Source of the DNA: Sulfurospirillum sp. UCH001
Lineage (GTDB): Bacteria > Campylobacterota > Campylobacteria > Campylobacterales > Sulfurospirillaceae
Reading direction: 5' to 3'
Length of the DNA: 64,000 nt
Assembly (NCBI RefSeq): GCF_001548035.1
Contig: NZ_AP014723.1
Coordinates: 806,001 to 870,000 of the forward strand
The notes beneath the pieces were generated by a model that was not told the DNA's origin, did not search any database, and saw only the letters and a program-made list of their open reading frames with translations. Shown piece after piece: positions 164-20,080 of this stretch. The first letter of the stretch is position 1; every line of letters begins with the position of its first letter. Both the position numbers and the translations under genes were made by a program.

Positions 164-1489
164 TTAGTTGCGATGCGTTTTATAGTGATGAATTAATTTT
201 TCTGGTGAAATACCTATGGCGTAGAGTAAGCTTAAAACACGGTTGCGAAGTGTCGTGTAAAAAATGCCTTCTTTATGCCATCTTCGTGCCGAAGTGAGAA
301 CTTTTGGTTTTAATAAAGCAACTTTTTCACGATGATGTTTGATGCGCTTCATCATCTCTACATCTTCCATTAAAGGGATGTTTTTATAGCCACGAAGCGT
401 TTTGAAAAAAGAAGTTTGAAAAAAATGTGCTTGGTCACCATACGGAATATGAGTAATTGATGTGCGAAGATTTGCCATGATCTCAATGCATCGAAGAAAA
501 AGATGCGTGTCATCAATAGCCAGTGAAAAGGCTCCTGCTTTATGTTTTTCTAACGCCTGTATTATCCATCGATCCCAATGATACGGAAGGCGTGTGTCAG
601 CATGCAAAAAAAGCAGTACTTCTCCTGATGCTCTTAGCGCTCCTTCATTCATTTGGTTGGCTCTGCCTTTTTTTGCGTAAGTAAGGTGTACATTTTCAAG
701 TTTCAAACGGTGTACTGTCGTGATCGCATGCGTATCTACTACAATGATTTCATAATTTTGGGCGTATGCCATAGTTCTTAAATGCGCTATAGTATGCAAC
801 AAGGTCTCATCTTCATGGTACACAGGAATCACCACACTAATGTGAGGTTGTTTCTCTAGTGCTTGTTTGGCAAAATCATACAAAGGAGTGTGAGACGCTG
901 TGCTTAAGTACGCACGAAGATCTTCTAGCGTATCGATATCACGAAGTAGAGCGCCTTGCGCTACATGGAGATGTGAAAGTTTGAAAAGAGTGTTGGCATA
1001 CACATCTTTTTGGCTATACATGATCCCCTCAAATGCAGCTTTGCAAAAAGTCTCCTTTTTGAAGCCGATAAGATAGTATCCGCCATCGTGTGTTGGACTT
1101 AGGATGGCATCGTTTTGAAGAAGCAAACTAAAGGCTTCTGTAATAATACCTTCATCGATTTCTGGAATATCAGAGCCTATAAGGATAGCGTTTGTATACC
1201 CTTGTTCAAATACTGTTTTGAAGGCATTTTGCATACGCTTACCCAATCCATCACCTGTTTGATAAAAAAGCGTTTTTCCTTCCACGTAAGAGGGCAAAGC
1301 AGTCTTTTCTTCATCATCATAAGCAATGATGACATCACAGTTTTGGGGCATTGTAAGATTTAAAAGCTGTTCGCACATCAAACGGTAGAATGTGGTCGCC
1401 GCTTGAACACCAATGCTGTTTGCAAGGCGTGTTTTGACACGACCAGGCAAGGGTGCTTTCATAAAAACAATCAGTGCATTTTGTCGCAT
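164..1489 (-). CDS. Fused TIGR04282-TIGR04283 transferase (arsenosugar-type)
   Basis: A 441-residue protein that joins two families usually encoded separately. Residues 1-205 resemble rSAM/selenodomain-associated transferase 1 (TIGR04282, DUF2064, GT-A nucleotidyl/glycosyltransferase fold), with KAPLPGRVKTRLA near 11-23 and GSDIPE at 105-110. Residues from about 217 resemble transferase 2 (TIGR04283, GT2 family), with ISVVIPVYHEDE and a HADTRLP metal/nucleotide motif. Both families are commonly annotated as arsenosugar biosynthesis glycosyltransferases. The start overlaps the end of the upstream kinase gene by 19 bp, so the two are translated from one message. Inferred role: activating a modified ribose and moving it to an acceptor. 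Substrate unknown. Confidence 0.72.
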   Translation of the reverse strand: MRQNALIVFMKAPLPGRVKTRLANSIGVQAATTFYRLMCEQLLNLTMPQNCDVIIAYDDEEKTALPSYVEGKTLFYQTGDGLGKRMQNAFKTVFEQGYTNAILIGSDIPEIDEGIITEAFSLLLQNDAILSPTHDGGYYLIGFKKETFCKAAFEGIMYSQKDVYANTLFKLSHLHVAQGALLRDIDTLEDLRAYLSTASHTPLYDFAKQALEKQPHISVVIPVYHEDETLLHTIAHLRTMAYAQNYEIIVVDTHAITTVHRLKLENVHLTYAKKGRANQMNEGALRASGEVLLFLHADTRLPYHWDRWIIQALEKHKAGAFSLAIDDTHLFLRCIEIMANLRTSITHIPYGDQAHFFQTSFFKTLRGYKNIPLMEDVEMMKRIKHHREKVALLKPKVLTSARRWHKEGIFYTTLRNRVLSLLYAIGISPEKLIHHYKTHRN

Positions 1490-2565
1490 AAATGCTTCTC
1501 AACAAGGCTTATAAAATCTTCTAAACTTTTCATCTCGAAAAAGCGTTCAATCATCTCAATGCTTAGTTGTTCACAGACTTTGTAGGCTTTTTCTTTTGCT
1601 TCCAATGTGGCTATGGCTTCAAGTGGTTTAGCCTTTGCGGGTACAACCAAGCGGCGCGAAAGCTCTGCACCGCAAAAACCAACACTTTGTTGCAAAATGT
1701 GCTCAGGTACAATCGCGATACCTTTTTCAAAAGCTTTCCAGAGTGAGCGGACAATAGGCTGAAACTGAATGGGCTTGCTCTCAAAACAGTTATAAATTTC
1801 ACCAAAAAGAATGTGTGCCAGCAGAGTTCCTATGTCAAATCCTAAAGGGGCGAAAAGGGAAAATTCTGCATCAATAATAGCGAGGCTTTCATTCTTAATC
1901 ATCACGGAGCCTGTGTGCAAATCACCATGAATTAAACACTCTTTCTCTTCTTGGAAGAGCTTAAGAAGGTGTGCGATATTTTGCATAAAGTGTGTACTTT
2001 TAGCTTTAGGTGTAAAGTACGAAGGACACAGCAGGGCAGGGTGATTTTCAATATAAGGAAAAATGAAAATATACTCTTCACTAATACGTTTCAATGTAGC
2101 ATTTTCATAGTAGTGTATCTCGTGTTTTGGCGGTGGTGTTTTGGTGTAGAGTGTCGCTAGAAATGTACCAAGTTTGGCGTAAAGTGAAAGCGAAATAAAC
2201 TGCGACAACTGTGCACTTTGCAAAAGTTTATAGCTGCTAAGATCTTCCATCGCAAAACAAAATGCCTCTTCATCACAATGATAAATCTCAGGAATCAATG
2301 AAGGTGCGATATTTTTAAAATAAGAGAGTGTATGCATTTCCACACAAATACGCTCTTGTGGTAGAGGAAAATCTTCACCAAGTAGCCTAAGATAGGGCGC
2401 AGCGTATTTGAGAATCAATGAAGTTCCGCTGTCATCACTAATACGAAAGATAAAGTTTAAGTTACCATCTCCTATCTCTTCTACATGGAGGGTTTCGTTT
2501 TTAAAAAAAGCTTTTAAATGAGTTGTCTTGTCGATATAGCGAATAATGTCGTTTTTCGTTTTCAC
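1471..2565 (-). CDS. Methylthioribose kinase-like phosphotransferase
   Basis: A protein kinase-like/APH-fold enzyme of about 364 residues. The N-terminal EIGDGNLNFIFR nucleotide loop, an EDLS motif, the catalytic segment LIHGDLHTGSVMI and IIDAEFSLFAPLGFDIG strongly recall S-methyl-5-thioribose kinase (MtnK), which phosphorylates the C1 hydroxyl of 5-deoxy-5-methylthioribose. I chose the GTG at 2565 because an AAAGGA site lies just upstream; the longer frame to 2613 has no supporting site. No other methionine salvage gene is visible. Its partner is the overlapping glycosyltransferase fusion, so a related 5-deoxy-5-substituted ribose (for example a dimethylarsinoyl ribose) is a reasonable alternative substrate. 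That substrate is inference only. Confidence 0.62.
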   Translation of the reverse strand: MKTKNDIIRYIDKTTHLKAFFKNETLHVEEIGDGNLNFIFRISDDSGTSLILKYAAPYLRLLGEDFPLPQERICVEMHTLSYFKNIAPSLIPEIYHCDEEAFCFAMEDLSSYKLLQSAQLSQFISLSLYAKLGTFLATLYTKTPPPKHEIHYYENATLKRISEEYIFIFPYIENHPALLCPSYFTPKAKSTHFMQNIAHLLKLFQEEKECLIHGDLHTGSVMIKNESLAIIDAEFSLFAPLGFDIGTLLAHILFGEIYNCFESKPIQFQPIVRSLWKAFEKGIAIVPEHILQQSVGFCGAELSRRLVVPAKAKPLEAIATLEAKEKAYKVCEQLSIEMIERFFEMKSLEDFISLVEKHLCDKMH

Positions 2566-2613
2566 GCGCAAAATCCTTTTTTGAAAAAGCACTATTATAG
2601 CAGAACAAGTCAA

Positions 2614-2774: not shown

Positions 2775-3215
2775 ATGAAACTTTTTTCATTGTTAACAGT
2801 ACCCATTGTGGCATTATTGCTCATTGGATGTGGTGGGAGTGTAAAACCAAATCCCAAATACAACTACATTACAGCAGATGAAACAGCGAAGTTGATACGC
2901 GAAAATGCAACGTCTATTGTGCTTGTAGATATCCAAGAAAAAGGTGATTTTGAAGAAGAACACTTAAAAGGTGCTCAGCCAACCTATGCATACCCTGTCA
3001 AAACCGATGCTGAAAAAGCACGTTTAGCAGAGCTTATTCCAAATATCAAACCGGATCAAAAAGTCATTATTATCTGTCCAAAAGGCGGTGGAGGGGCTGA
3101 TAGAGCGTATGATTTTTACCTTGAAAAAGGGCTCAAAAAAGAGCAACTTTTTACGCTTAAAGGTGGTCAGTATGAGTGGCCAAGAGACCGCATCAAAGAT
3201 GTCTTAGCAAAATAA
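2775..3215 (+). CDS. Rhodanese-domain lipoprotein
   Basis: 146 residues. An N-terminal hydrophobic stretch ends in LLIGCGGS, a lipobox with the lipidated Cys near residue 19, so the protein is probably anchored in the cell envelope. The rest is one rhodanese domain: VLVDIQEKGDFEEEHLKGA at the start of the fold and the active-site loop CPKGGGGAD with Cys101. The loop is longer and more glycine-rich than the common CxxGxRS form. The next gene is a close paralogue, 22 bp away. Rhodaneses transfer sulfane sulfur or handle oxyanions such as arsenate and selenite; which applies here cannot be read from sequence. Confidence 0.78.
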   Translation: MKLFSLLTVPIVALLLIGCGGSVKPNPKYNYITADETAKLIRENATSIVLVDIQEKGDFEEEHLKGAQPTYAYPVKTDAEKARLAELIPNIKPDQKVIIICPKGGGGADRAYDFYLEKGLKKEQLFTLKGGQYEWPRDRIKDVLAK

Positions 3216-3237: not shown

Positions 3238-3675
3238 ATGAAACTCTCTAAAGTATTGGGCGCGTTAGCAGTTGCTACGCTTTTTAAAGGTGCGCTTGTC
3301 GCTGGAATTTTTAGCAATTACAATTACATTTCTCCAGAAGAAACGGCAGAACTTGTACGCAATAACCCTTCTAAAGTGGTAATTGTGGACATTCAAGAAA
3401 AACCAGGTTTTGAGAAAGAACATCTTAAAGGTGCACAGGCAACGTATGCGTATCCTGTGAAAACGGAAGATGAAAAAGGGCGTTTAGAAGCACTTTTACC
3501 AACATTTAAACCTGATCAGAAAATTGTTATTGTTTGCCCAAGAGGCGGTGGAGGAGCGGATCGTGCGTATGATTTTTACCTCTCTAAAGGTGTGAAAAAA
3601 GAGCAACTCTTTACATTGACAAAAGGTCAAGAAGGTTGGCCACGTGAGAAAATCACAGACGTGCTTGAAAAATAA
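3238..3675 (+). CDS. Exported rhodanese-domain protein, paralogue of the preceding gene
   Basis: 145 residues with a probable cleavable signal peptide (ALAVATLFKGALVAG) instead of the lipobox of its neighbour. The rhodanese domain is nearly the same, with IVDIQEKPGFEKEHLKGA and the loop CPRGGGGADRAYDF around Cys100. The pair likely arose by tandem duplication, giving one anchored and one soluble periplasmic version. An AAGGAAAC ribosome binding site supports the start. The last codon and stop overlap the start of the membrane protein gene at 3675, indicating an operon. Confidence 0.76.
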   Translation: MKLSKVLGALAVATLFKGALVAGIFSNYNYISPEETAELVRNNPSKVVIVDIQEKPGFEKEHLKGAQATYAYPVKTEDEKGRLEALLPTFKPDQKIVIVCPRGGGGADRAYDFYLSKGVKKEQLFTLTKGQEGWPREKITDVLEK

Positions 3676-4346
3676 TGTTCAAACCTTCTAAAATCGCGAT
3701 ACTGCTCTTTAGCGGTGTCGCCCTTACCCTTATCTTCATCTGTCCACAAAGCAGGAACTACTTTTTTGAGTTAGTGGGACTGTTTCAAAGTCTAGATATC
3801 GATAAAATCAAAGAGTATATTCTCTCTTTTGGTATATTAGCGCCACTCATTTCATTTTTATTGATGGTCTTTCAAGCTATTTTAGCGCCATTGCCTGCAT
3901 TTCTCATTACATTTGCCAATGCCACGCTCTTTGGATGGGTCTATGGAGCAGCTCTTTCATGGGCAAGTGCTATGGTTGGAGCACTCCTGTGTTTTTATAT
4001 CGCTCAGTTTTTAGGACGCGATGTGGTGGAGAAGCTCACGAGTAAAATGGCACTAGAGAGTGTGGATGCTTTTTTTGAAAGACATGGTGTGTATGCGATT
4101 TTAATCGCACGATTGCTTCCATTTATCTCTTTTGATGTGGTGAGTTATGCTGCTGGACTTACCTCGATGAAACTTCGTTCATTTTTGGTGGCTACTGGCA
4201 TTGGACAACTACCTGCAACGCTGGTGTACTCCTATGTGGGAGGGATGCTCACAGGCGATGCAAAAACGGCAGTGTATGGACTTTTAATTCTCTTTTCTGT
4301 CACTATTTTGATTTATCTCATCAAGCGGGTCTATCGTGGACGCTAA
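3675..4346 (+). CDS. TVP38/TMEM64 (DedA-like) membrane protein
   Basis: 223 residues with about five to six hydrophobic helices and the SNARE-associated/VTT core: a segment like FANATLFGWVYGAALSW, then FYIAQFLGRDVVEKL, and RLLPFISFDVVSYAAGL. The family comprises polytopic inner-membrane proteins linked to lipid scrambling or envelope homeostasis. In several genomes it sits beside arsenosugar biosynthesis genes. The start overlaps the stop of the preceding rhodanese, and the stop overlaps the Fe-S protein by 11 bp. A second family member occurs two genes downstream (5436-6080), so this cluster carries two. Confidence 0.8.
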   Translation: MFKPSKIAILLFSGVALTLIFICPQSRNYFFELVGLFQSLDIDKIKEYILSFGILAPLISFLLMVFQAILAPLPAFLITFANATLFGWVYGAALSWASAMVGALLCFYIAQFLGRDVVEKLTSKMALESVDAFFERHGVYAILIARLLPFISFDVVSYAAGLTSMKLRSFLVATGIGQLPATLVYSYVGGMLTGDAKTAVYGLLILFSVTILIYLIKRVYRGR

Positions 4347-5439
4347 CATCAAAATGTATGAAAGCGAGTGTGTGGACTGCAGGAGTTGTATGAAGGGCTG
4401 TCCGATGCTCTATAACTTTACGATTTCGCCTAAAACTTTATTGACAAAATTTACGACAGAACACCCCTCTGCCCACATGGCGTTTGCGTGTACAAACTGT
4501 GGGTTATGTGCGCATCTGTGCCCTAAAGATATTGATTTTGGAGGGATGTTTACTGCTTCAAAACAAAATTATGCCGAAGATAAAAATGTGTTGAAAAAGT
4601 ATGGCTATGGTGGAGTGATCTTTCACCAAAAAAGTAGTTTTTCAAAACTTTTTTCTACTACAAAAAAGTTTACCAAAGGAGAGTACACCCATATGGCATT
4701 TATGCCAGGATGTGCACTTAGCTCGTACTCTCCGAGCCTTGTTCATACAGTATTTAATTATTTACAGTCCAAATGCTCAGGCATTGGCATTATTCAGCAG
4801 TGCTGTGGCACACCTACGCGTATGATGGGCGATATGAAGCAATTTCATGCGTACCACTCGCAGCTTGAAGAAGACCTCGCAAATATGGGTGCAACGACGG
4901 TTGTCACTGCATGTGAGAACTGTTTTATGAGTCTTAAAACCTATGCCCCACACATCAAGATTATTTCACTCTATTCACTCTTAAGGGAAATTGGATTACC
5001 AGAAGGTGCAAAAGAGCGTTATAAAAATGCCCCTATGATGGCGCTGCATGACCCTTGCCCTACACGCTATGAGACAAAAATACACGATGATGTAAGAGCG
5101 CTTTTAGATGTTGTACAACTGCCCTATGAAGAGTTTAAACACAACCGTGAAAAAACCTTGTGTTGTGGTAGTGGTGGTATGTTAGAGCTAACGCATGCGG
5201 CTTTAGCCAAAGAGCAAATGCGTACACGTGCCAATCAGACAGAGTGTGAAAGCATCGTCAGTTATTGCCAAAGCTGTGCTGAGTCTATGAGTAAGGGCGG
5301 GAAAAATGGCGTACATTTGCTTGATCTTATCTTTACTCCTGAGTTTTCGATGAAACAAGAAGCGCAAGGGAGTCTTAAAAAATGGTACAACCGTTTTAAT
5401 TCACGTCAAATGATCAGCGCTTTAAAGGATAACGCATAA
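4336..5439 (+). CDS. Fe-S oxidoreductase with two CCG domains (HdrD/GlpC/LutA-like)
   Basis: 367 residues. Two ferredoxin-type [4Fe-4S] motifs lie at the N-terminus (CVDCRSCMKGCP from residue 12 and CTNCGLCAHLCP from about 52). Two cysteine-rich CCG domains follow (PGCALSSYSP...CCGTPTRMMG and HDPCPTRYE...CCGSGGMLEL). This is the layout of heterodisulfide reductase subunit D, GlpC and related electron-transfer subunits. There is no membrane segment, so it is probably cytoplasmic and may supply electrons to the radical SAM enzyme or to a membrane partner; that is inference. It overlaps the membrane protein genes on both sides if the ATA start downstream is real. Confidence 0.78.
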   Translation: MDANIKMYESECVDCRSCMKGCPMLYNFTISPKTLLTKFTTEHPSAHMAFACTNCGLCAHLCPKDIDFGGMFTASKQNYAEDKNVLKKYGYGGVIFHQKSSFSKLFSTTKKFTKGEYTHMAFMPGCALSSYSPSLVHTVFNYLQSKCSGIGIIQQCCGTPTRMMGDMKQFHAYHSQLEEDLANMGATTVVTACENCFMSLKTYAPHIKIISLYSLLREIGLPEGAKERYKNAPMMALHDPCPTRYETKIHDDVRALLDVVQLPYEEFKHNREKTLCCGSGGMLELTHAALAKEQMRTRANQTECESIVSYCQSCAESMSKGGKNGVHLLDLIFTPEFSMKQEAQGSLKKWYNRFNSRQMISALKDNA

Positions 5440-6080
5440 AAAAGGCGCTTCTTTTTTTAGCCTTTGGGCTTTTAATGTTTATTTTTTATCAAAATGGCGT
5501 ACTCTCTTACGCACAAGTTGAAGCGATTAAAACCTTTGTGCTTGGCTTTGGCATCTATGCACCGCTTATTTTCATTCTGCTTTTTACATTAGCACCCCTT
5601 ATCTTTTTTCCTGATGGCATTTTAGCCCTTGCAGGTGGGCTGATCTTCGGTTTTGCATGGGGGAGCCTTTACATCGTTTTGGGAGCTCTTTGTGGAGGGA
5701 CACTCTCATTTTTTCTTGCACGACTTTATGGCAAAGCTATGCGTGAAAAATTAGCGCATGAGAAGCTGATGAACTTCCAAAAAAGCGTTAAAAAGCATGG
5801 GTTTATGATGATCTTACTGTTGCGTTTAGTGCCGCTTGTTCCCTTTAATATCATCAGTTATAGCGCTGGGTTTTCCACGATTCGCTACGTGGATTTTTTC
5901 TTCGCAACACTTTTGGGAATGTTGCCAGGTGTTTTGGTGTATGCGAACATTGGGGCTCAATCGTTGGCATTTGGAAGTCATGAGTTTTACATCTCCATTA
6001 GTTTATTGGTCGCATTAGTTGTTGTTTCAATGATTTTAAAACATCGTGTTAAAAAGAGGTTAGAGGCATATGAAAAATAA
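5436..6080 (+). CDS. TVP38/TMEM64 (DedA-like) membrane protein, second copy
   Basis: The core matches its neighbour at 3675: LAGGLIFGFAWGSLY, FFLARLYGKAMREKL and RLVPLVPFNIISYSAGF. The first ATG is at 5475 but has no ribosome binding site and cuts into a hydrophobic helix. Reading upstream in frame gives a better signal-anchor (KKALLFLAFGLL) that begins at an ATA codon at 5436. That codon overlaps the TAA of the Fe-S gene and sits 6 nt after an AAAGGA site at 5424-5429. I therefore propose ATA initiation (214 residues); with ATG 5475 the protein has 201. The 3' end overlaps the rSAM fusion gene by 11 bp. Confidence 0.68.
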   Translation: MKKALLFLAFGLLMFIFYQNGVLSYAQVEAIKTFVLGFGIYAPLIFILLFTLAPLIFFPDGILALAGGLIFGFAWGSLYIVLGALCGGTLSFFLARLYGKAMREKLAHEKLMNFQKSVKKHGFMMILLLRLVPLVPFNIISYSAGFSTIRYVDFFFATLLGMLPGVLVYANIGAQSLAFGSHEFYISISLLVALVVVSMILKHRVKKRLEAYEK

Positions 6081-9054
6081 TTGGCAGAGAATAGTGTTTG
6101 AGGGATCACCTATTTACGTGCATCGTCACAGTGCAGACTGGTTTGTTCCTAACGAGAGCGCAGATAGAGTGTTGCAAAATGAAGAAAATAGCTTTTCGTA
6201 TCAACAGTTGCAACACCGTATCTCTGCTCCCAACCCTTTGGTATATATGCCAAAACAAACCTCAAAAACAACGCTTCAAGAGTTTTGGATACACCTGACC
6301 AATCGTTGTAATCTTTCGTGTTCTCACTGTCTGTTTAGCTCTGCCCCTAGTGAAAAAGATACACTCAGTCTTGAGAACATAACATGTCATGTCAAAGAGG
6401 CGTATGCCCTTAGCTGTAGATTGTTTGTCATTAGTGGTGGAGAACCGTTAGTCCATCCTGAACTGCTTTCTTTGGTCGAAATGATTTTAGCATTGAATGA
6501 TACGGAAGTAGTCATCTTAACCAATGGCATGTTGCTTGAAAACGTTTTTACAGACAAAGCATTTCCAAAATCGAGACTGCATTTTCAAATTAGCCTTGAT
6601 GGGCTTCCACAAGAACATGATGCCATTCGTGGGCGCGGAAGTTTTGCAAAGTTAGATAAAAACATCGTTTGGCTTCAAAAAATGGGTTATTCGTTTTCAC
6701 TTTCACTCTGTCTTCATCCGCTTAATATTCAAAGCTTAGAAGAGATGGTAACACTGGCACATACGCTCAAAGCGGGACATCTGCACTTCCTATGGTATTT
6801 TTCACGAGGACGAGGCGTTAATGAGGGATTAATTGCAGAAAATACGCTTTTTAATACACTTATCAACGCCTATGAGAAAGCCCAAAACTTAGGGCTTGTC
6901 ATCGACAATTTTGAAGCACTCAAAACTCAAATCTTTGCACCCAAAGGCACGGTACACGATGGCTCAAGCTCTGGGCGTAGTTCTATCGCTTTGGGATATG
7001 ATGGGCATTTTTATCCGAGTGCGGCTATGGTAGGGGAGAGCGCACTTTTGATGGAAGGAGAGAGCATCGCTCAAGCACTACAGAGTAAGGTAGCTAAAGC
7101 CATTGCTTCACAGTCCATTACAACGCTTACGTCACCGCTTCGTTTTTTACTCGGAGGTGGCGACTTAGACCACAGTTTTGCTCATGCTAAAACGTTTATG
7201 GGCGATGATCCGTATGAACCACTTTTAGAAAAACTTGCTTTATGGCTGATAACGAGAGAAGCAAAGCGTTATGATAGACTTAAAAAGCCAGCTTTATGCC
7301 TAGAGATGGGCGATATACTTTATAGTTGTGGGGCAAACGAAGGTGTAGCACATACACATGCCAACTGTCTGTTTGCCACAGGTGAGAGTGAGTCATTGCG
7401 ACTGGTCAAGTCCTTTTACCACGATGCGGCGCTAGAAGATAAAGAAGACATTTTAAATCCCGCGTGTTATGAAGAATCATACCTCTCTCACATTCCTTCC
7501 CATTTGCGTTTTCGGGGTTATGGGTGTGGAAGTCCGATTTTAGACGCTAACCTCAAAGAGGGTGAGAGCATGTTAGACCTTGGTTCTGGCAGAGGCATTG
7601 AGTGTTTTATCGCCTCTAAGCTCGTGGGTAAAAATGGGCGTGTTATGGGTGTGGATATGCTGGACTCCATGCTGAAAATCGCTCGTAGTGGCGCAGAAGA
7701 AGTGGCAAAAAGTCTTGGCTATAACAATCTCGCCTTTGCCAAAGGCTACCTTGAGGCATTGCCAGAAGAAAATGAGAGTTTTGATGTCATTACTTCCAAC
7801 TGCGTGCTCAATCTCTCCAGTCACAAACGTAAACTTTTTGCGGAAATTTTTCGCGTGCTTAAAAAGGGCGGAAGGCTCGTGGTCTCCGATGTTATCTGTG
7901 ATGAAGAAGCGAGTGCCCTCATTCGCAATGACGCAAAGCTTAGCGGAGAGTGCATCGGTGGGGCATTGACACAAGCCCATCTTTTAGGGCTTCTTCGTGA
8001 GAGTGGTTTTGAGAACATTCAGCTTCTCAAACGCTTTTTTTACCGCAAAGTGAAAGGGCATACCTTTTATTCACTGACCTTTCAAACACATAAAACAGAG
8101 GTGCAAAAGAGGGTTGAAGTTATCTATAAAGGTGTGGGAGAAAGCCTTACTTTGGAAAATGGCGTAGTGCTGTTTAAAGGAGTTAAAACGCGCATTGATG
8201 AGGTTTTGGCTAAACAGTTAGAGAGTGAAGTGTTTATTCTCGATGAACAGGGCAATGTCAGTAATCAAGAAGGGCAAAGTTGTTGTTGCGCGACACCACC
8301 TGAGAAAAAACAAAGTCTGTTATTGACTCCAAAACCAATGGCACATCTTTCTTTTAGCGTATCCCCCAAACAAACGCACAACTGTATGGTCTGTGCATCC
8401 GAGCTGGTGTATAAAACCACACTGGAAGAGTCAACCTGTTATTACTGTGGAAGTGTTACGCATCAGAGCGTGATGTGCCAAGAAGGACACTATGTGTGCG
8501 ATGCTTGCCATGCCAAAGAAGCGTTAGAAGTGATAGAACACATCTGTAAAACATCGAAAGAGCGCGATATGCTCAAACTTTTTCGCCAGATACGTGAACA
8601 TCCAAGCATTCCCAAACACGGACCAGAACACCATGCAATGGTTCCTGCCATTATCGTAACCGCTTATAAAAACAGTGGTGGAAAAGTGAACGAAAATGCC
8701 CTAAAAACGGCTCTTTCAAGAGGATCGAGTGTAATGGGTGGAGCGTGTGGGTTTTTGGGCATTTGTGGTGCAGCAAGTGGTGTTGGCATCGGTTTTGCCA
8801 TTGTTTTAGAGTCTTCGCCTATGGCAAAAGTTGCACGTTCAATGGCTCAAAAAGTGACGCATGCTGTACTTGGCAAAATAGCCGAGTACGAAGCCGCACG
8901 CTGTTGTCATAGAGAAGTGTGGACAGCGCTCAACATCGCTTCAAGCCTCTCGGAGAGATTTTTACCAGTTAAATTGTTAGCCGAGATAGAGATTAAATGT
9001 GATCAAAAGCGTTTCAATCAGTATTGCTATGGAAAAGAGTGCCCAATATTTTAA
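6070..9054 (+). CDS. Radical SAM + ArsM-like methyltransferase + DUF5714 fusion
   Basis: 994 residues in three parts. Part 1 (about 60-330): radical SAM domain with Cys80, Cys84 and Cys87 (CNLSCSHC) and the ISGGEP motif. Part 2 (about 470-690): class I methyltransferase close to arsenite methyltransferase ArsM, with LDLGSGRGIE from about 503, ITSNCVLNL and GECIGGAL. Cys486, Cys578 and Cys628 correspond to the three arsenite-binding cysteines known in ArsM. Part 3 (about 735-994): a Cys-rich region with a CCC triplet at 738-740 and several C-x2-C pairs, as in DUF5714. Arsenosugar synthesis needs arsenic methylation plus a radical SAM step, so one polypeptide could do both. The metalloid is inferred from the cysteines. 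It is the last gene of the plus-strand operon. Confidence 0.72.
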   Translation: MKNNWQRIVFEGSPIYVHRHSADWFVPNESADRVLQNEENSFSYQQLQHRISAPNPLVYMPKQTSKTTLQEFWIHLTNRCNLSCSHCLFSSAPSEKDTLSLENITCHVKEAYALSCRLFVISGGEPLVHPELLSLVEMILALNDTEVVILTNGMLLENVFTDKAFPKSRLHFQISLDGLPQEHDAIRGRGSFAKLDKNIVWLQKMGYSFSLSLCLHPLNIQSLEEMVTLAHTLKAGHLHFLWYFSRGRGVNEGLIAENTLFNTLINAYEKAQNLGLVIDNFEALKTQIFAPKGTVHDGSSSGRSSIALGYDGHFYPSAAMVGESALLMEGESIAQALQSKVAKAIASQSITTLTSPLRFLLGGGDLDHSFAHAKTFMGDDPYEPLLEKLALWLITREAKRYDRLKKPALCLEMGDILYSCGANEGVAHTHANCLFATGESESLRLVKSFYHDAALEDKEDILNPACYEESYLSHIPSHLRFRGYGCGSPILDANLKEGESMLDLGSGRGIECFIASKLVGKNGRVMGVDMLDSMLKIARSGAEEVAKSLGYNNLAFAKGYLEALPEENESFDVITSNCVLNLSSHKRKLFAEIFRVLKKGGRLVVSDVICDEEASALIRNDAKLSGECIGGALTQAHLLGLLRESGFENIQLLKRFFYRKVKGHTFYSLTFQTHKTEVQKRVEVIYKGVGESLTLENGVVLFKGVKTRIDEVLAKQLESEVFILDEQGNVSNQEGQSCCCATPPEKKQSLLLTPKPMAHLSFSVSPKQTHNCMVCASELVYKTTLEESTCYYCGSVTHQSVMCQEGHYVCDACHAKEALEVIEHICKTSKERDMLKLFRQIREHPSIPKHGPEHHAMVPAIIVTAYKNSGGKVNENALKTALSRGSSVMGGACGFLGICGAASGVGIGFAIVLESSPMAKVARSMAQKVTHAVLGKIAEYEAARCCHREVWTALNIASSLSERFLPVKLLAEIEIKCDQKRFNQYCYGKECPIF

Positions 9055-9523: not shown

Positions 9524-10660
9524 ATGCACAATCATAATGAAATTGATGACATTAATGTATCTGCATGGACCGATAAATACTTTTCCAACACAAAAGCTAT
9601 CATTGAACATTTTGGCGATACTGAAGTGACGTATGCTTTCTTTCTACGTCGTCCCGTTCTTTCGGCCACACACTTAGCTACACGGTGGGCACAAGCTCAA
9701 GCCAAACAGAATAATCAGCACATTACTGTAGAAGTGATGCATCAAGAGGGAGAGTGGGTAGGTGCGGGTGAACCATTGTTTTATCTGAGTGGTTCGTTTG
9801 CTTTTTTAGCAGAGCTTGAAACACTGATATTACAAAAGCTTGGCTCTGCTTGTGTTGCTGCTTACAATGCTTATGAAATGTGCCAGATTCTGCCGCAAGT
9901 ATCATTTTTAGCAATGGATGCAAGACACTGCGCAGGAACTGAAATGGCTGAAATCATGGCATATGGCGCATCGGTGGGGTCAAATGCCGCCAAGCGAAAG
10001 TTTGGAGCTATAGGGTTTATCGGTAATGCAACGGATGCAACTGCACATTTTTTTGGTCGTGAAAAAGGGCTTGGTACGCTACCTCATGCGCTCATCGGCT
10101 ACGCTGGCTCAACACTGAGGGCTGTTCAGATGTTCCATGAATGTTTCCCAGACGAAAACATCCCTATATTGGCAGATTATTTTGGTCGAGAGATTACGGA
10201 TACACTAGAAGTCTGCAATGCTTTTGCAGATTTAGCACATACTGGAAAGGTTGCTGTCCGTCTTGACACACATGGTGGACGTTTTTTAGAGGGGCTTGAT
10301 ACGCAAAAAAGTTATGATGCTCTTGGTCGCCATGCACCTGATGCGGTGCGTGACTATCGTACGGAAGCGGAACTTCATGATCTTATCGGCACGGGTGTTT
10401 CGGCTGCTGCTATTTGGAGTATGCGAGAAACTCTTGATAACGCGGGCTTTAACCAAGTACGCATTATCGCTTCTTCGGGTTTTACACCGCAAAAATGCCG
10501 TTCGATGGCATGGGCAAAAGCGCCTATTGACATCATTGGCACAGGCTCATTTTTGCCAGATAAGTGGAGTGAGACATGTGCCACAGCAGATATTATCGCT
10601 TATGATGGCGTACCAAAAGTGAAAGTGGGACGAGAATTCTTGCTTAAAAAAGCGCAATAG
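9524..10660 (+). CDS. pncB: Nicotinate phosphoribosyltransferase
   Basis: 378 residues of the nicotinate/quinolinate phosphoribosyltransferase superfamily. Recognisable parts are TDKYFSNTKAIIE at the N-terminus, an FLRRP substrate-binding segment, the central MDARHCAG and GFIGNATDATAHFFG motifs, VRLDTHGGR, and the C-terminal IIGTGSFLP phosphate loop. It makes nicotinate mononucleotide from nicotinate and PRPP for NAD salvage. The ATG at 9524 has an AAGGAG site 5 nt upstream. It appears to be monocistronic, with a terminator-like hairpin after it. The symbol is by family; the archaeal-type short form could also be named as a paralogue. Confidence 0.82.
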   Translation: MHNHNEIDDINVSAWTDKYFSNTKAIIEHFGDTEVTYAFFLRRPVLSATHLATRWAQAQAKQNNQHITVEVMHQEGEWVGAGEPLFYLSGSFAFLAELETLILQKLGSACVAAYNAYEMCQILPQVSFLAMDARHCAGTEMAEIMAYGASVGSNAAKRKFGAIGFIGNATDATAHFFGREKGLGTLPHALIGYAGSTLRAVQMFHECFPDENIPILADYFGREITDTLEVCNAFADLAHTGKVAVRLDTHGGRFLEGLDTQKSYDALGRHAPDAVRDYRTEAELHDLIGTGVSAAAIWSMRETLDNAGFNQVRIIASSGFTPQKCRSMAWAKAPIDIIGTGSFLPDKWSETCATADIIAYDGVPKVKVGREFLLKKAQ

Positions 10661-12579: not shown

Positions 12580-15369
12580 ATGTCGCTTTCAAGAAGAGAC
12601 TTTCTAAAAACAACTGCCGCTGCAAGTGCTGCTGCTGCCGTAGGCATCAGTGTACCAGCCGAGCTTAAGGCCGCTGGCGAACAAGCAGAAGCAGGTTGGC
12701 GTTGGGACAAATCCGTTTGCCGTTTCTGTGGTACCGGTTGTGGTATTATGGTTGCGACCAAAGAGGGTAAAATTGTCGCAGTAAAAGGTGATCCAGCAGC
12801 TCCAGTAAACCGTGGACTTAACTGTATCAAGGGCTATTTTAATGCCAAAATCATGTACGGTGCAGATCGTCTAAAAGAACCACTTTTACGTATGAATGAT
12901 AAAGGTGAATTTGACAAAAAAGGTCAATTCAAACCTGTTTCATGGAAACGTGCGTTTGACGAGATGGAAAAACACATGAAAGCTGCGATGAAAGCAGGCG
13001 GTCCAGAAGCGATTGGTGTATTTGGTTCAGGTCAATATACCATCATGGAAGGTTATGTTGCTGCGAAGCTTATGAAAGCAGGTTTCCGTTCTAACGGTAT
13101 TGATCCAAATGCACGTCACTGTATGGCTTCAGCGGTTGCTGGTTTTATGCAAACATTTGGTATTGATGAGCCATCAGGCTGTTATGATGACATCGAGCTT
13201 ACTGACACCATCGTTACATGGGGTGCCAATATGGCTGAGATGCACCCAATTTTGTGGTCACGTGTGAGTGATAGAAAATTGACGAATCCAGATCGTGTTA
13301 AAGTTATCAACCTTTCAACGTATACTCATCGTTGTTCTGACCTTGCAGATATGGAAATCATCTTCTCTCCAAGTACAGACCTTGCGATTTGGAACTACAT
13401 CGCTCGTGAGATTGTTTACAATCACCCAGAAGCGATTGATTGGGATTTCGTTAAGAAAAATACCATTTTTGCAACAGGTTTTGCAAACATCGGTTACGGT
13501 ATGCACACTGAAGCAGCCGCTAAAAAATTAGGTTATTCTGACAAAGAACTTGAAATCATCAAAAAAGAAGATGCAAAAGTTATTTCTGAGAAAGAAGCTC
13601 CAGGCCTTGCACACTTAGGCATAAAAGCAGGCGATACCATGAAAATGGATAAAGCTGCAACTGCGGGCGTTCACTGGGAAATTACCTTTGAAGATTTCAA
13701 AAAAGCTTTAAATCCTTATACACTTGATTACGTTGCGAAAATTTCAAAAGGTAATCCAGATGAAAAACTTGAAGACTTTAAAGTAAAACTTCAAACACTT
13801 GCAAACCTTTATATCGAAAAAAATAGAAAAGTTGTCAGCTTCTGGACAATGGGTATGAACCAACACCAACGTGGTACGTGGGTTAATGAGCAATCATACA
13901 TGGTTCACTTCCTTCTTGGTAAACAAGCTAAACCAGGTGACGGTGCGTTCTCTCTAACAGGACAACCAAGCGCATGTGGAACAGCTCGTGAAGTTGGTAC
14001 CTTTACACACAGACTTCCAGCAGATATGGACGTTTCAATTCCAAAACACAGAGAAATTACAGAAAAAGTATGGAACTTACCAGCGGGAACATTAAACCCA
14101 ATGGGTTACCAACACATTATGAACATCCATAGACAAATTGAGAGTGGAAAAATCAAATTTGCATGGGTTAACGTTTGTAATCCATACCAAGATACAGCAA
14201 ATGCTGAGCACTGGATCAAAGCGGCTCGTAAAGAGGGCAACTTCATCGTTTGTTCAGATGCATACCCTGGTATTTCAGCAAAAGTATCTGACCTTATCTT
14301 ACCTTCAGCGATGATCTACGAGAAATGGGGCGCTTACGGTAATGCTGAAAGACGTACTCAACAATGGAAACAACAAGTACTTCCAGTTGGCGACGCGATG
14401 AGCGATACATGGCAGTGGGTTGAGCTTTCAAAACGCTTTACAATTGCTGACGTATGGGGCGAGCAACCAATTAAAGATGGAAAACTTCCAAACGTTATCG
14501 AAGCAGCAAAAGCAATGGGTTATAAAGAGACAGATACCCTCTTTGATGTTCTTTTTGCGAATGACTTCTTCAAATCATTTAAAGCAAAAGATCCTATTGG
14601 TGAGGGCTTTGATAACACTGAAGTGTTTGGTGACAAACGTGGTGTTATGGGTAGTGATGGAAAAGAGTGGAAAGGATATGGCTTCTTCTTACAAAAAGCA
14701 ATTTGGGAAGAGTACCGTAAGTTTGGTTTAGGTCATGGACATGACTTAGCAGACTTTGATACGTATCACAAAGTAAGAGGACTTAAATGGCCAGTTGTTG
14801 ATGGTAAAGAGACACAATGGAGATTTAACGCGAAATACGATCCATATGCTGCAAAAGCAAATAATGGTGACTTCGCATTCTATGGTGATGCAATGAAAGC
14901 TCTTAAACGTGGTGACCTTGTAAAACCAACCACAGAAGAGACATTCCCACTTAAAAATAAAGCAAAAATCTTCTTTAGACCTTACATGGATCCATGTGAA
15001 ATGCCAGATAAAGAGTATGACATGTGGTTATGTACTGGACGTGTTCTTGAGCACTGGCATAGTGGTACGATGACCATGCGTGTACCTGAGCTTTATCGTG
15101 CGGTTCCTGAAGCACTTTGTTATATGCACCCAGAAGATGCAAAAGCAAAAGGCTTTAAACAAGGCGATATGATTTGGCTAGAAAGCCGTAGAGGTTCATG
15201 TAAAGCACGTGTAGAAACTCGTGGACGTAATAGAACTCCAAGAGGTTTAGTTTATGTTCCGTGGTTTGATGAGAAAGTATTTATCAACAAAGTGTGCCTC
15301 GATGCAACATGTCCGATCTCTAAACAGACAGACTATAAAAAATGTTCGGTTAAGCTCTATAAAGCGTAA
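12580..15369 (+). CDS. napA: Periplasmic nitrate reductase catalytic subunit
   Basis: 929 residues. A twin-arginine signal ([13 protein letters not shown]) exports the folded enzyme. The [4Fe-4S] motif [10 protein letters not shown] plus the later NCIKG, and the molybdenum ligand Cys181 in ARHCMASAV, identify NapA. The C-terminal region has the MGD-binding [14 protein letters not shown] motif. It reduces nitrate to nitrite in the periplasm, with electrons coming from NapB and NapGH. The roughly 929-residue length is the epsilonproteobacterial form, longer than the 828-residue enteric one. A GGAGG site precedes the ATG. It is the first gene of napAGHBFLD. Confidence 0.97.
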
Positions 15370-15377
15370 CTAAAATA

Positions 15378-16193
15378 ATGGAAACAACAAATAAAATCGC
15401 AATTACTGAGCGCAGAAGATTTTTAACCTTGATGGCTCAAGGTGGTGGACTTGTGGCGCTTAGTGGTATGGTTTGGACTGGGTACTTGGAAGAGGCAAAA
15501 TCAGCTCCGCTGATTTTAAGACCTCCTGGGGCTGTTGCTGAGAGGGACTTTATGCGCTTGTGTATCAAGTGTGGGCAGTGTGTTGAAGCCTGTCCGTACC
15601 ATACATTGCATTTAGCAAAACCTGGTGACACTAAGCCTATGGGAACGCCTTTTTTCATCCCAAGAGAGGTACCGTGTTATATGTGCACCGACATTCCGTG
15701 TGTGCCTGTATGTCCTACAGGAGCATTGGATGCAAAGAGTGTTTCAAAAATCACTGAAGGTGTCAAAGAACTTGACATCACCAAGGCGCGTATGGGACTT
15801 GCAGTCGTTGACGTTGAGTCATGCATCGCTTTTTGGGGTATTCAGTGTGACGCGTGTTACCGAGCGTGTCCAATCATGGATAGTGCGATAAAGTTAGAGT
15901 ATAGACGAAATGAGCGAACAGGCAAACATGCCTATTTGACCCCTATTGTGAATAGCCTTACCTGTACGGGATGTGGTTTGTGCGAAAGAGCGTGTGTTAC
16001 TGAGAAAGCGGCAATTCATGTGCTTCCTTTGGATATTGCTAAAGGTGCTATTGGCGCACACTACATCAAAGGCTGGGAACAAGGGGATGAGAAGCGTTTA
16101 GAAAAAGCGGGCAGTGATGTCACCACCCACACCAAACGTAGTGAGAAATCGGCACAAGATTATCTCAATACGAATGAGGAGTTGTTCAAATGA
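15378..16193 (+). CDS. napG: NapG ferredoxin-type quinol dehydrogenase subunit
   Basis: 271 residues with a twin-arginine-like N-terminus (ERRRFLTLMAQGGG) and four [4Fe-4S] motifs, including CIKCGQCVEACP, CYMCTDIPCVPVCP, CDACYRACP and CTGCGLCERAC. With NapH it forms the menaquinol dehydrogenase that replaces NapC in Campylobacterota. It is probably attached to the periplasmic face of the membrane. Its 3' end overlaps napH by 4 bp. Confidence 0.95.
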   Translation: METTNKIAITERRRFLTLMAQGGGLVALSGMVWTGYLEEAKSAPLILRPPGAVAERDFMRLCIKCGQCVEACPYHTLHLAKPGDTKPMGTPFFIPREVPCYMCTDIPCVPVCPTGALDAKSVSKITEGVKELDITKARMGLAVVDVESCIAFWGIQCDACYRACPIMDSAIKLEYRRNERTGKHAYLTPIVNSLTCTGCGLCERACVTEKAAIHVLPLDIAKGAIGAHYIKGWEQGDEKRLEKAGSDVTTHTKRSEKSAQDYLNTNEELFK

Positions 16194-17023
16194 GAGAATG
16201 GATCAGAAGCCACCGTTTTATGATGGCGCGACGCTTCACTCAAGTGGGCATCTTTGTGTTGTATGTGGCAGCTAATGTCTATGGCTTTATGCTTTTAAGT
16301 GGCAATCTAAGCTCTTCTTTAGTCATGAAAAAGCTGCCTTTAGCCGATCCATTTGCGCTGTTGCAGATGTTTTCAGCAGGCGCACTTTTGGGGCTAGATG
16401 TACTTGTTGGCGGCGCTTTAATTTTGCTTTTTTACACTGTTGTTGGTGGACGGGCGTTTTGTTCATGGGTATGCCCACTCAATATGGTTACCGATGCAGC
16501 AAACTGGACACGAAGAGTTATTCTTTTGGACAATGCGACCCAAAAGAAGCTTTGGCTCAGTCGTAATGTGAGGTATTGGGTTCTAGCCCTAAGCCTTATT
16601 TTATCGTTCATCACGGGTGTTGCAGCATTCGAGATGATAAGCCCTATCGGTATTTTGAGTAGAGGCATCATCTTTGGAATGGGTATGAGCGTTGCACCTA
16701 TACTCTGTATTTATTTGTTTGATCTTTTTGCTGTGAAAAATGGCTGGTGCGGGCACATCTGTCCTTTAGGAGGATTTTACTCCATCGTAGGACGTCTAAG
16801 TCTTATTCGTGTTAAACACGATCACACGAAATGTACGCTGTGCATGAAGTGTAAAGAGATTTGTCCTGAAAAACAGGTTCTTGGCATTATCTCCAAACAA
16901 AGCGGTGCGATTGTTTCTGGAGAGTGTACGAACTGTGGCAGATGTGTAGAGGTGTGTGAGAGTGATGCACTCTCTTTTGGTGTGAGAAATTACATTAACA
17001 CAAATGTAGGAGAAAAAGAATGA
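16190..17023 (+). CDS. napH: NapH membrane quinol dehydrogenase subunit
   Basis: 277 residues with four membrane helices and cytoplasmic Cys motifs CSWVCP and CGHICP between helices. The C-terminus carries two ferredoxin motifs (CTLCMKCKEICP and CTNCGRCVEVCE). It oxidises menaquinol and passes electrons to NapG/NapB. Overlaps of 4 bp with napG and napB show tight translational coupling. Confidence 0.95.
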   Translation: MREWIRSHRFMMARRFTQVGIFVLYVAANVYGFMLLSGNLSSSLVMKKLPLADPFALLQMFSAGALLGLDVLVGGALILLFYTVVGGRAFCSWVCPLNMVTDAANWTRRVILLDNATQKKLWLSRNVRYWVLALSLILSFITGVAAFEMISPIGILSRGIIFGMGMSVAPILCIYLFDLFAVKNGWCGHICPLGGFYSIVGRLSLIRVKHDHTKCTLCMKCKEICPEKQVLGIISKQSGAIVSGECTNCGRCVEVCESDALSFGVRNYINTNVGEKE

Positions 17024-17544
17024 TTAGTACAAAAACATTGATAATGGTTTCTTTGTTAGGCGTTATGGTAGCCAGCGGATGCGCGGTATCTCAGTCATAC
17101 AAAGAAGAGGAACTAGGACTTAGAAAGGTTGATCTCTACAGTGAAAAAACAGTTGTTGCTGAGCCAACATCATACTCTACTGTAGCTGCAGGTGAATCTA
17201 AAGTGATTCAAAGATCGTTTGAAAATGCACCTCCGATGATCCCTCATGATGTCGAAGGTATGTTGGACATGACAAAAGAGAATAACGCGTGTACAGGTTG
17301 TCACTTGCCTGAAGTTGCTGAGGCAGTGAAAGCGACTCCAATCCCAAAATCGCACTTTTTTGATATGAGAACACAAAAAGTGTTGACTGAAATGAGTCAA
17401 GCGCGTTACAACTGTTCAGCATGTCATGCGCCACAATCTGCAAATGAGCCTTTGGTTAAAAATGAATTCCAACCAGAGTATCGTAAACAAAATGGTGCAC
17501 AACGTTCAAACCTTCTTGATACACTCAATGAAGGCGTGAAGTAA
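17020..17544 (+). CDS. napB: NapB di-haem cytochrome c subunit
   Basis: 174 residues with two CxxCH haem sites, CTGCH at Cys91/Cys94/His95 and CSACH at Cys132/Cys135/His136. It is the small electron-transfer subunit of NapA. The N-terminal segment ends MVASGCAVSQ, which looks like a weak lipobox, so the protein could be a lipoprotein rather than a soluble periplasmic cytochrome; this is uncertain because position -3 is Ala. It overlaps napH by 4 bp and is followed after 2 bp by napF. Confidence 0.93.
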   Translation: MISTKTLIMVSLLGVMVASGCAVSQSYKEEELGLRKVDLYSEKTVVAEPTSYSTVAAGESKVIQRSFENAPPMIPHDVEGMLDMTKENNACTGCHLPEVAEAVKATPIPKSHFFDMRTQKVLTEMSQARYNCSACHAPQSANEPLVKNEFQPEYRKQNGAQRSNLLDTLNEGVK

Positions 17545-17546
17545 CC

Positions 17547-18062
17547 ATGACAAATGGCAGCAGAAGAGGGGTTCTTACCTCTCTTTTTGGTATGAAGAAG
17601 GCGCAAAAAATTCAAAATGAGTTGTGTGTGCGCCCTCCATATCATCAAGAGGGATATGCTTTTTCTGAGATTTGCGTTACATGTCAAGATACGCCTTGCG
17701 TGAACGCATGCGAAGAAAATATTATCTTCCTCGATGCTGCACATACTCCTTGCTTAGACTTTACCAAACGCGGTTGTACGTTTTGTGAAGCGTGTGCAAG
17801 TGCATGTCCTAATGGAGTACTTGATCTTAGTCGTAAAGATGAAAAAGATCTACAGGTAAAAGCTGAAATTGATATCATGGCATGTATGGCATGGCACCAA
17901 AGCTTATGCAATAGCTGTTTGGATGCATGTGAACCTAAAGCCATTCTCTTTTTAGGACTGTTTAGACCTCATATTGAGATGGATGTATGCAATGGATGCG
18001 GTATGTGTATAGGCATCTGTCCTAGCAGTGCAATTAGCATAAAATACGAGGAGAAAGCATGA
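17547..18062 (+). CDS. napF: NapF ferredoxin-type protein
   Basis: 171 residues with several [4Fe-4S] motifs: CVTCQDTPCVNACE, CTFCEACASACP, CNSCLDACEP and CNGCGMCIGICP. There is no signal peptide, so it is cytoplasmic, as known for NapF, which helps assemble or reduce NapA before export. The stop overlaps the napL start. Confidence 0.9.
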   Translation: MTNGSRRGVLTSLFGMKKAQKIQNELCVRPPYHQEGYAFSEICVTCQDTPCVNACEENIIFLDAAHTPCLDFTKRGCTFCEACASACPNGVLDLSRKDEKDLQVKAEIDIMACMAWHQSLCNSCLDACEPKAILFLGLFRPHIEMDVCNGCGMCIGICPSSAISIKYEEKA

Positions 18063-19006
18063 AATATTTTCTACTCTTAGGTGTTATTAGCAGTTTACTT
18101 TTTAGTGCAGAGCTTCAGCCACGAAGTGTGATTGAAGCCAGTGGAAATGTACAGCAGGTTGCATTTGTTGATGGCAACATCATCGCTGGAACCAGTGCTG
18201 GAACGCTAGAAGTGTATAAACTCAGTGATGCAACAAAACTTTCAAAAATAGAATTTCCTAAAATCAAAGATTTTACAGGAGATGAAGTTTCTCCAAAAAT
18301 TTTCTCAGTCGATATGCTAGAAAAGACCCTTTTAGCGGTAGTTCAAGCAACCAATGGTTCACGTGAGCTCTATCTTGTTGAAGATGGAAAACCAAAGGTA
18401 CTGATAGATTCAAAAGCCAATTTGTTTATCTCAAAAGCGAAATTTGTCGATAAAAACCGTATTTTAGTGGCGCTTTTGAGTAATGAGATGCTTTTATGGG
18501 ATGTCAAAAACAAAAAAGAGATTTATCGTATACAGCCCAATCCATCGCATTTTAGTGACTTTGCTTTGAATGAAAGCAAAACGATGGCTGCTAGTTCATG
18601 TGAATCAGGAGAGATTACCCTTTTTGATGCTCTTAGTGGCAAAATCATAAAAGTGCTCAAAGGTGCTAATGTCGATAATGTCTATAAAGTAGATTTTAAA
18701 AAAGAGAAAGTATTGTGTGCAGGGCAAGATAGACGAGGCATCGTTTATGATGTGAGCAGTAGCGCATATGATCGCTTTGATGGTTCATTCCTACTTTATG
18801 CAGGTGCCCTTAGCCCGAGCCTAAAATTTGCAGCTTTTGCTTTTAATGAACAAAATGATATTGTCTTGTTTGATCTTGCATCCAAAAGCAAAGCTCATAC
18901 ACTAAAAGGACAAAAAAGTACCCTCAATACCATCGTCTTTGCGAACGACAAAGAACTTGTAAGTAGCAGTGACGATCAATTTATTATGATTTGGAGACTC
19001 CCATGA
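18059..19006 (+). CDS. napL: NapL periplasmic beta-propeller protein
   Basis: 315 residues with a signal peptide (MKYFLLLGVISSLLFSAE) followed by WD40-like repeats, such as TMAASSCESGEITLFD and a final SSSDDQFIMIWRLP. NapL is specific to epsilonproteobacterial nap operons; its role is not well defined, with a modest contribution to Nap activity reported for Campylobacter. It overlaps napF and napD by 4 bp. Confidence 0.88.
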   Translation: MKYFLLLGVISSLLFSAELQPRSVIEASGNVQQVAFVDGNIIAGTSAGTLEVYKLSDATKLSKIEFPKIKDFTGDEVSPKIFSVDMLEKTLLAVVQATNGSRELYLVEDGKPKVLIDSKANLFISKAKFVDKNRILVALLSNEMLLWDVKNKKEIYRIQPNPSHFSDFALNESKTMAASSCESGEITLFDALSGKIIKVLKGANVDNVYKVDFKKEKVLCAGQDRRGIVYDVSSSAYDRFDGSFLLYAGALSPSLKFAAFAFNEQNDIVLFDLASKSKAHTLKGQKSTLNTIVFANDKELVSSSDDQFIMIWRLP

Positions 19007-19356: not shown

Positions 19357-19365
19357 GGTCATACC

Positions 19366-19902: not shown

Positions 19903-20012
19903 TTTCTTTATGATGGATTGAAATGCAAACGCATTTTGGTCCATTCCTCTATTTTTACCCAATATAGCCATTTCTAAATATATTTAATGCAAAAAGCTAG
20001 CTATGTACATTT

Positions 20013-20037
20013 ATACTTTTCTAATTAATAAAAGTAT
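20013..20037. repeat. Inverted repeat before the TDT transporter gene
   Basis: ATACTTTT (20013-20020) and AAAAGTAT (20030-20037) form an 8-bp inverted repeat with a 9-bp spacer in a 178-bp AT-rich gap. It could be a weak terminator for the nap/PAS message or an operator. Confidence 0.35.
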
Positions 20038-20080
20038 ATTCTTATAATTATATTTACTAAAAATTATATTAGGAGTAAGA

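Follow-up and report, generated by a model that had tools for sequence, protein, structure and literature searches.

How might a bacterium that carries arsenosugar-associated glycosyltransferases, and no recognizable ArsS, build the core of an arsenosugar? The question is raised by a 64,000-nt stretch of Sulfurospirillum sp. UCH001 (contig NZ_AP014723.1, 806,001-870,000 of the forward strand), called here the window, within which all positions are counted. One of its genes encodes a protein that joins a radical S-adenosylmethionine (SAM) domain, an ArsM-like methyltransferase and a DUF5714 domain. What experiments have shown of arsenosugar synthesis comes from ArsM/ArsS systems, including a cyanobacterial one. 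Our analyses suggest, with a probability of roughly two in three, that the fusion has a separate evolutionary origin, takes the place of both ArsM and ArsS in one polypeptide and serves as core enzyme in a pathway of the arsenosugar type. Judged from its genomic context, it most likely methylates and adenosylates arsenic, since it replaces ArsS, contains an ArsM domain and accompanies the same glycosyltransferases.

The fusion and ArsS across genomes

An original prediction, made from the DNA letters alone, had claimed the presence of the three domains in one protein, and the claim holds. The open reading frame is intact and has Pfam and NCBIfam matches, the Pfam domains being Radical_SAM (residues 75-229, E 1.5e-20), Methyltransf_31 (496-645, E 3.8e-29) and DUF5714 (822-993, E 1.1e-57), each well clear of its threshold, and the AlphaFold2 model of the full protein reaches a pLDDT of 84.6 and a pTM of 0.68. 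Because the same architecture recurs in many genomes of two phyla, in relatives 37-86% identical to the fusion, an assembly or frame artefact, or mere chance, is ruled out.

Searches of 199 Campylobacterales and 395 Desulfobacterota genomes found the fusion in 11 of the former (ten of Sulfurospirillum, one of a neighbouring genus) and in 34 of the latter. Many of the Desulfobacterota genomes are metagenome-assembled, so an absence carries less weight in them than in Campylobacterales. The glycosyltransferase family TIGR04283 scores above its cut-off in 14 of the 199 Campylobacterales genomes, namely in all 11 with the fusion (Fisher 1e-15) and in three with ArsS, with zero overlap between the two groups. 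Two Sulfurospirillum genomes without the fusion are also devoid of the glycosyltransferase and of ArsM. In the complete genome to which the window belongs, profile searches revealed no second ArsM, and no better match to the ArsS profile than the fusion itself. Among the Desulfobacterota, TIGR04283 is present in 32 of the 34 fusion genomes (p 1e-9), and ArsS in just one; one of the two fusion genomes without the glycosyltransferase, G427, has a gene of the glycosyltransferase cluster at a contig edge (L081). When the 184 Desulfobacterota genomes with the glycosyltransferase are considered, ArsS occurs in 1 of the 32 with the fusion versus 110 of the 152 others (p 7e-14). The genomes are phylogenetically related, so that all of these p-values are optimistic.

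The exchange can also be followed within a single family. Genome G116, from a sister genus of Sulfurospirillum, encodes an ArsS-ArsM fusion of 663 amino acids (L141:7503-9491, minus strand), and the genes beside it are 76% (rhodanese), 67% (VTT), 52% (CCG) and 59% (VTT) identical to those of the window, whereas the VTT and CCG genes of the window are only about 28-31% identical to those of Desulfobacterota. The window fusion itself has its nearest relatives in Desulfobacterota, while G116 shares the accessory genes but has another core enzyme. In the glycosyltransferase tree, the G116 protein nests inside those of the Sulfurospirillaceae, and at least four switches between the fusion and ArsS are required. 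Despite the optimistic p-values, the substitution pattern repeats in two phyla, with exchange within a family and several switches in the tree: in genomes, the fusion stands in for ArsS.

Stand-alone relatives of the radical SAM half, of about 520 amino acids and unfused, occur in seven genomes. These genomes, and G215, which encodes a related fusion, contain the glycosyltransferase and are without ArsS; in G221 (L173), the stand-alone protein is encoded between the TIGR04283 and TIGR04282 genes. Among the Desulfobacterota genomes with the glycosyltransferase and neither core enzyme, 34 of 42 are also without SPASM-type relatives, which may reflect a further core enzyme, gaps in the assemblies or a different function of the glycosyltransferase. 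Two genomes, G072 (L140) and G176 (L139), possess ArsS and the glycosyltransferases and no ArsM at E 1e-20, and in both the gene immediately following ArsS is of the C_GCAxxG_C_C redox type.

The methyltransferase and radical SAM halves

Residues 465-731 superpose on ArsM (4fr0) with Z 27.7 (262 residues aligned, root-mean-square deviation (rmsd) 7.2, 36% identity), and the best PDB matches of the domain are all ArsM or AS3MT. The arsenite methyltransferase profile NF008823 matches residues 456-665 with 207 bits (E 2.9e-61), below the 263-bit cut-off for naming a whole protein; the ArsM adjoining ArsS in G577 likewise stays under it, at 238 bits. In a tree of methyltransferase domains, which had no non-ArsM outgroup, so that the placement rests on homology searches too, the fusion forms one clade (SH-aLRT 97), whose neighbours are the G215 protein and the ArsMs from genomes with ArsS; the other Desulfobacterota ArsMs lie apart. 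The As(III) site of CmArsM consists of Cys72, Cys174 and Cys224 (PMC4211708; PMC5552862). The original prediction held that three arsenite-binding cysteines are retained, at 486, 578 and 628, and the alignment with CmArsM agrees, all three being invariant in the 35 full-length fusion relatives that form our conservation set. It had also named beforehand, as the outcome that would overturn it, a methyltransferase falling outside ArsM; by tree, structure and cysteines, the domain falls inside.

ArsM-fold enzymes bind soft elements generally, and the related ArsM-like and DUF5714 NCBIfam models are selenoproteins. Selenium, antimony or tellurium might accordingly be the substrate, and a non-arsenic metallo-sugar the product, which would agree with the lack of arsenic-resistance genes recurring near the Desulfobacterota fusions. 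However, none of the three cysteines of the As(III) site varies, the domain groups among ArsMs, and the fusion replaces the arsenic-acting ArsS one for one, and we therefore consider another metalloid improbable.

The fourth ArsM cysteine (Cys44 in CmArsM, LCCP in the ArsS-linked ArsMs) is replaced by ILNP in the fusion, and C466, near the missing position, is present in only 15 of the 35 relatives. Since ArsMs with three of the four conserved cysteines have been accepted as ArsM (PMC5552862), this loss alone does not exclude ArsM membership, and it would suit an enzyme whose methyl acceptor is an organoarsenical instead of arsenite. The missing motif also leaves room for a reverse order of events, in which the radical SAM half would first make the As-C bond on As(III), possibly with a 3-amino-3-carboxypropyl group in the manner of ArsL, and methylation by the ArsM domain would follow. 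In arsinothricin synthesis ArsL does act before ArsM (PMC8552651), and the radical SAM half itself is distinct from ArsS. Nevertheless, arsenosugar-type glycosyltransferases such as those linked to the fusion otherwise go with ArsS, pointing to a deoxyadenosyl rather than an aminocarboxypropyl product, and we regard this alternative as unlikely.

The CxxxCxxC motif that had been read in the other half corresponds to C80, C84 and C87, and together with the PF04055 match (E 1.5e-20) and fold similarities of up to Z 28.7 it places the fusion in the radical SAM superfamily. Residues 3-401 of the model superpose on CteB (5wgg; RRE, radical SAM and SPASM) with Z 28.7 and an rmsd of 3.6 over 382 residues. 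Structure comparison thus revealed a feature beyond the original prediction, an N-terminus with the peptide-binding RRE/PqqD-like fold, while the SPASM fold is kept without the SPASM cysteines; between residues 214 and 420 no cysteine is conserved. The ArsS profile TIGR04167 gives the fusion 55 bits (E 5e-15) against a curated cut-off of 300 bits, and the C-terminal DUF3641 (PF12345) of ArsS, which is present in the G116 protein, was not found in the fusion by Pfam search. An identity with ArsS is ruled out on these grounds, in keeping with the original view that this part is not obviously ArsS; the profile comparison then proposed matched the ArsM-type and DUF5714 families and left ArsS far below its cut-off. 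No NCBIfam radical SAM name is reached either, the top scores being 81 bits (Rv1681) and 77 bits (mycofactocin maturase).

The best fold matches of this half, CteB and SkfB, are maturases of ribosomally synthesized and post-translationally modified peptides. With the RRE-like N-terminus and the PqqD match in the G215 homologue (L135), they raise the possibility that the radical SAM half modifies a peptide, the ArsM domain methylating that peptide or a metal carried on it. On the other hand, the SPASM cysteines are lost, the genes linked to the fusion encode glycosyltransferases and VTT/CCG redox proteins, and no recurring small precursor gene was recognized beside the fusion, precursor genes as such not having been searched for; this reading is very improbable. 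Still more remote is an enzyme that is an arsenite methylase only, detoxifying by methylation and volatilization, with a radical SAM half of another or lost role. The methyltransferase half is indeed the best conserved recognizable part of the protein and the sole ArsM of the genome, but the tie to the glycosyltransferases is near-perfect, and the radical SAM half is probably active because C80, C84 and C87 and the GGEP motif are invariant in the 35 relatives.

DUF5714, the proposed reactions and the gene neighbourhood

In addition to the cysteines named by the original prediction, C420, C433, C512, C740 and 14 cysteines of DUF5714 are invariant in 35 of 35 relatives. DUF5714 (PF18978) scores 194.7 bits against a gathering threshold of 26.2 bits and, when modelled alone, reaches a pLDDT of 91.5. 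Neither sequence searches, Foldseek nor VIA-align (best Z 3.8) gave a convincing match to its fold, which does not in itself prove the fold to be new. Kinship with C_GCAxxG_C_C (PF09719) was considered and is unsupported, the hhalign probability being 0.8% (two-sequence profile) and the one weak hmmscan match (E 0.0012) lying below cut-off. The DUF5714 cysteines may bind or relay trivalent arsenic, or serve redox chemistry. A counterpart of the C420...HxNC433 segment exists in the G215 protein and at the C-terminus of the stand-alone radical SAM homologues. In G020 (L106:8439-11425), the fusion is split at the linker into a radical SAM-ArsM reading frame and a separate DUF5714 reading frame, and a split close to the linker is seen in G355 (L095) and G417 as well.

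In the proposed mechanism, As(III) or methylarsenite would bind the thiolate site of C486, C578 and C628 and receive a methyl group from SAM in the ArsM domain. The [4Fe-4S] cluster held by C80, C84 and C87 would cleave a second SAM to the 5'-deoxyadenosyl radical, and its capture by trivalent arsenic would give 5'-deoxy-5'-(methyl)arsinoyl-adenosine. DUF5714, with C420 and C433, might retain the trivalent arsenical or pass it along, or might supply electrons, and the product would then be taken up by the kinase-like protein and by the glycosyltransferases of TIGR04282/4283. The genome-wide complementarity to ArsS and the co-occurrence with arsenosugar glycosyltransferases give the proposed adenosylation a strong basis. 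A fuller account, which we hold to be evenly balanced between right and wrong, is that arsenic adenosylation arose independently in a radical SAM lineage that descends from RRE/SPASM peptide maturases and, at the subfamily level, has no relation to ArsS. Fused to ArsM and to a cysteine-rich DUF5714 that may channel trivalent arsenic between the active sites, this lineage would form the single-protein arsenosugar synthase core of sulfate reducers and Sulfurospirillum, repeatedly exchanged with ArsS.

Beside the relatedness of the genomes and the loss of the fourth ArsM cysteine, several points weigh against a one-polypeptide replacement for ArsM and ArsS. The radical SAM half is nearer to Rv1681/MftC/NirJ-type profiles than to ArsS, and an identical chemistry cannot be assumed. 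The arsenosugar names of TIGR04282 and TIGR04283 rest on their association with ArsS, and 42 Desulfobacterota genomes with the glycosyltransferase have neither ArsS nor the fusion. No arsenic-resistance family is among the commonest families of the 84 neighbours of the Desulfobacterota fusions. The analyses establish the domain identities, the conserved cysteines, the placement in ArsM, the distinctness from ArsS and the genomic substitution for it; from these we infer the substrate, both reactions, their order, the role of DUF5714 and all later steps.

The features of the locus are collected in the table. Upstream of the fusion and on the same strand lie two rhodanese, a VTT, a Fer4/CCG and a second VTT gene, several of them overlapping by a few bases. 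The gene order of the window locus, including the linkage of fusion and glycosyltransferase, recurs across Sulfurospirillum. In Desulfobacterota, the fusion lies within 10 kb of the glycosyltransferase in 9 of the 25 genomes for which both places are listed (binomial p 5e-14), and fusions are also found near VTT, MerA-like or CCG-VTT genes. A methylthioribose-kinase-like gene adjoins the glycosyltransferase in the ArsS genome G116. In two other ArsS genomes, a TIGR04282-type DUF2064 protein is fused to a methylthioribose-kinase-like APH protein (L139:4941-6449, G176; L140:4848-6293, G072). The kinase-like protein is therefore a candidate for a later arsenosugar step and might, by analogy with methionine salvage, phosphorylate arsinoyl-deoxyribose, for example.

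Table. Features of the fusion gene and its surroundings, by position in the window
Feature	Position	Strand	Basis
Fused TIGR04282-TIGR04283 arsenosugar-associated glycosyltransferases	164..1489	-	173.3 and 227.5 bits, both above curated cut-offs
APH-fold kinase resembling S-methyl-5-thioribose kinase	1471..2613	-	TIGR01767, 247 bits (cut-off 275)
Rhodanese-like protein, first gene of the operon	2775..3215	+	PF00581
Second rhodanese-like protein	3238..3675	+	PF00581
VTT-domain (TVP38/DedA-type) membrane protein	3675..4346	+	PF09335
Fer4/CCG iron-sulfur oxidoreductase	4336..5439	+	PF02754; NF045663, 245 bits, below cut-off
Second VTT-domain protein, overlapping the fusion gene by 11 bases	5475..6080	+	Pfam search, open reading frame list
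Coding sequence of the radical SAM-ArsM-DUF5714 fusion	6070..9054	+	994 amino acids, no internal stop
N-terminal RRE/PqqD-like domain, residues 1-64 (origin inferred)	6070..6261	+	CteB alignment of the model; PF05402 (PqqD) match in G215 homologue L135
Radical SAM core, residues 69-289	6274..6936	+	PF04055, 75-229, E 1.5e-20; VIA-align Z 25-28 to SPASM-type radical SAM enzymes
CxxxCxxC cluster motif, C80, C84, C87	6307..6330	+	invariant in 35/35 relatives
Degenerate SPASM region without auxiliary-cluster cysteines, residues 290-401	6937..7272	+	alignment with SPASM-intact L135; PF13186 in L135
C420...HxNC433 segment between radical SAM and methyltransferase domains	7327..7368	+	both cysteines invariant in 35/35
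ArsM-type methyltransferase domain, residues 440-735	7387..8274	+	Pfam, NCBIfam, CmArsM alignment, tree; Z 27.7 to 4fr0
C486, equivalent of CmArsM Cys72	7525..7527	+	CmArsM alignment; invariant in 35/35
C512, extra invariant cysteine right after methyltransferase motif I	7603..7605	+	35/35 relatives
C578, equivalent of CmArsM Cys174	7801..7803	+	CmArsM alignment; invariant in 35/35
C628, equivalent of CmArsM Cys224	7951..7953	+	CmArsM alignment; invariant in 35/35
Low-confidence linker, residues 735-769, with CxC pair C738/C740	8272..8376	+	pLDDT <50; split point in some relatives
DUF5714 domain, residues 770-994, with 14 invariant cysteines	8377..9051	+	PF18978, E 1.1e-57

Further downstream, a nicotinate-phosphoribosyltransferase-like gene (9524-10660, plus strand) is found near the fusion in several Sulfurospirillum at varying distance and is probably not linked to it. 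The region 12580-21046 (plus strand) carries the periplasmic nitrate reductase genes NapA, NapG, NapH and NapF, followed by a TehA-like tellurite-resistance/dicarboxylate transporter. A promoter and terminator scan gave promoter-like sites as often as expected by chance and terminator-like sites about 1 standard deviation more often, and neither was used.

Significance and comparison with known systems

The original prediction considered that a single polypeptide of this kind would be new. This stands only in part: a literature search, mostly of sources outside the subscription journals, returned no description of a radical SAM-ArsM-DUF5714 fusion, no mention of DUF5714 and a single paper that names arsenosugar and ArsS together, but many sequenced genomes already contain the fusion, and a genuine ArsS-ArsM fusion exists in the sister genus. 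If our reading is correct, strict anaerobes would possess a second, non-homologous radical SAM solution, and C-As bond formation by deoxyadenosyl transfer would have evolved more than once. Sulfate reducers and Sulfurospirillum would join the organisms expected to make complex organoarsenicals, and methylation and adenosylation could be separated in a one-protein system by mutating either set of cysteines. The genes conserved around the fusion, for the kinase-like protein, the TIGR04282/4283 glycosyltransferases and the VTT and CCG proteins, would point to the later steps of the pathway.

The closest parallel in architecture is the G116 protein, in which a radical SAM domain and ArsM are likewise joined in one polypeptide, in the same domain order and with the same rhodanese-VTT-CCG-VTT genes. 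It differs in having a genuine ArsS radical SAM domain (360 bits, DUF3641), a CmArsM-like ArsM and no DUF5714, and is a second, independent one-polypeptide solution. The G215 protein (L135:4459-6942, minus strand; 828 amino acids), in contrast, is a radical SAM/SPASM-ArsM fusion homologous to the window fusion throughout (E 4e-125), and differs from it by intact SPASM cysteines, the LCCP (Cys44) motif and the absence of DUF5714.

With the ArsM plus ArsS arsenosugar system (Synechocystis type; TIGR04167), the fusion has in common an ArsM and a radical SAM enzyme accompanied by TIGR04282/4283 glycosyltransferases and VTT proteins, and the two are mutually exclusive across genomes, save for one Desulfobacterota genome with both. 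ArsS adenosylates arsenic on the way to oxo-arsenosugars, an established reaction (Cheng 2021, cited in PMC12159101), and it belongs to a different radical SAM subfamily with a DUF3641 C-terminus, whereas the fusion combines an RRE, a degenerate SPASM region, an ArsM domain without the Cys44 motif and an added DUF5714 in one polypeptide. The ArsL plus ArsM system of arsinothricin is alike in that a radical SAM enzyme and ArsM jointly make C-As bonds (PMC8552651). There, however, the two are separate proteins, ArsL transfers a 3-amino-3-carboxypropyl group, and no arsenosugar glycosyltransferases take part.

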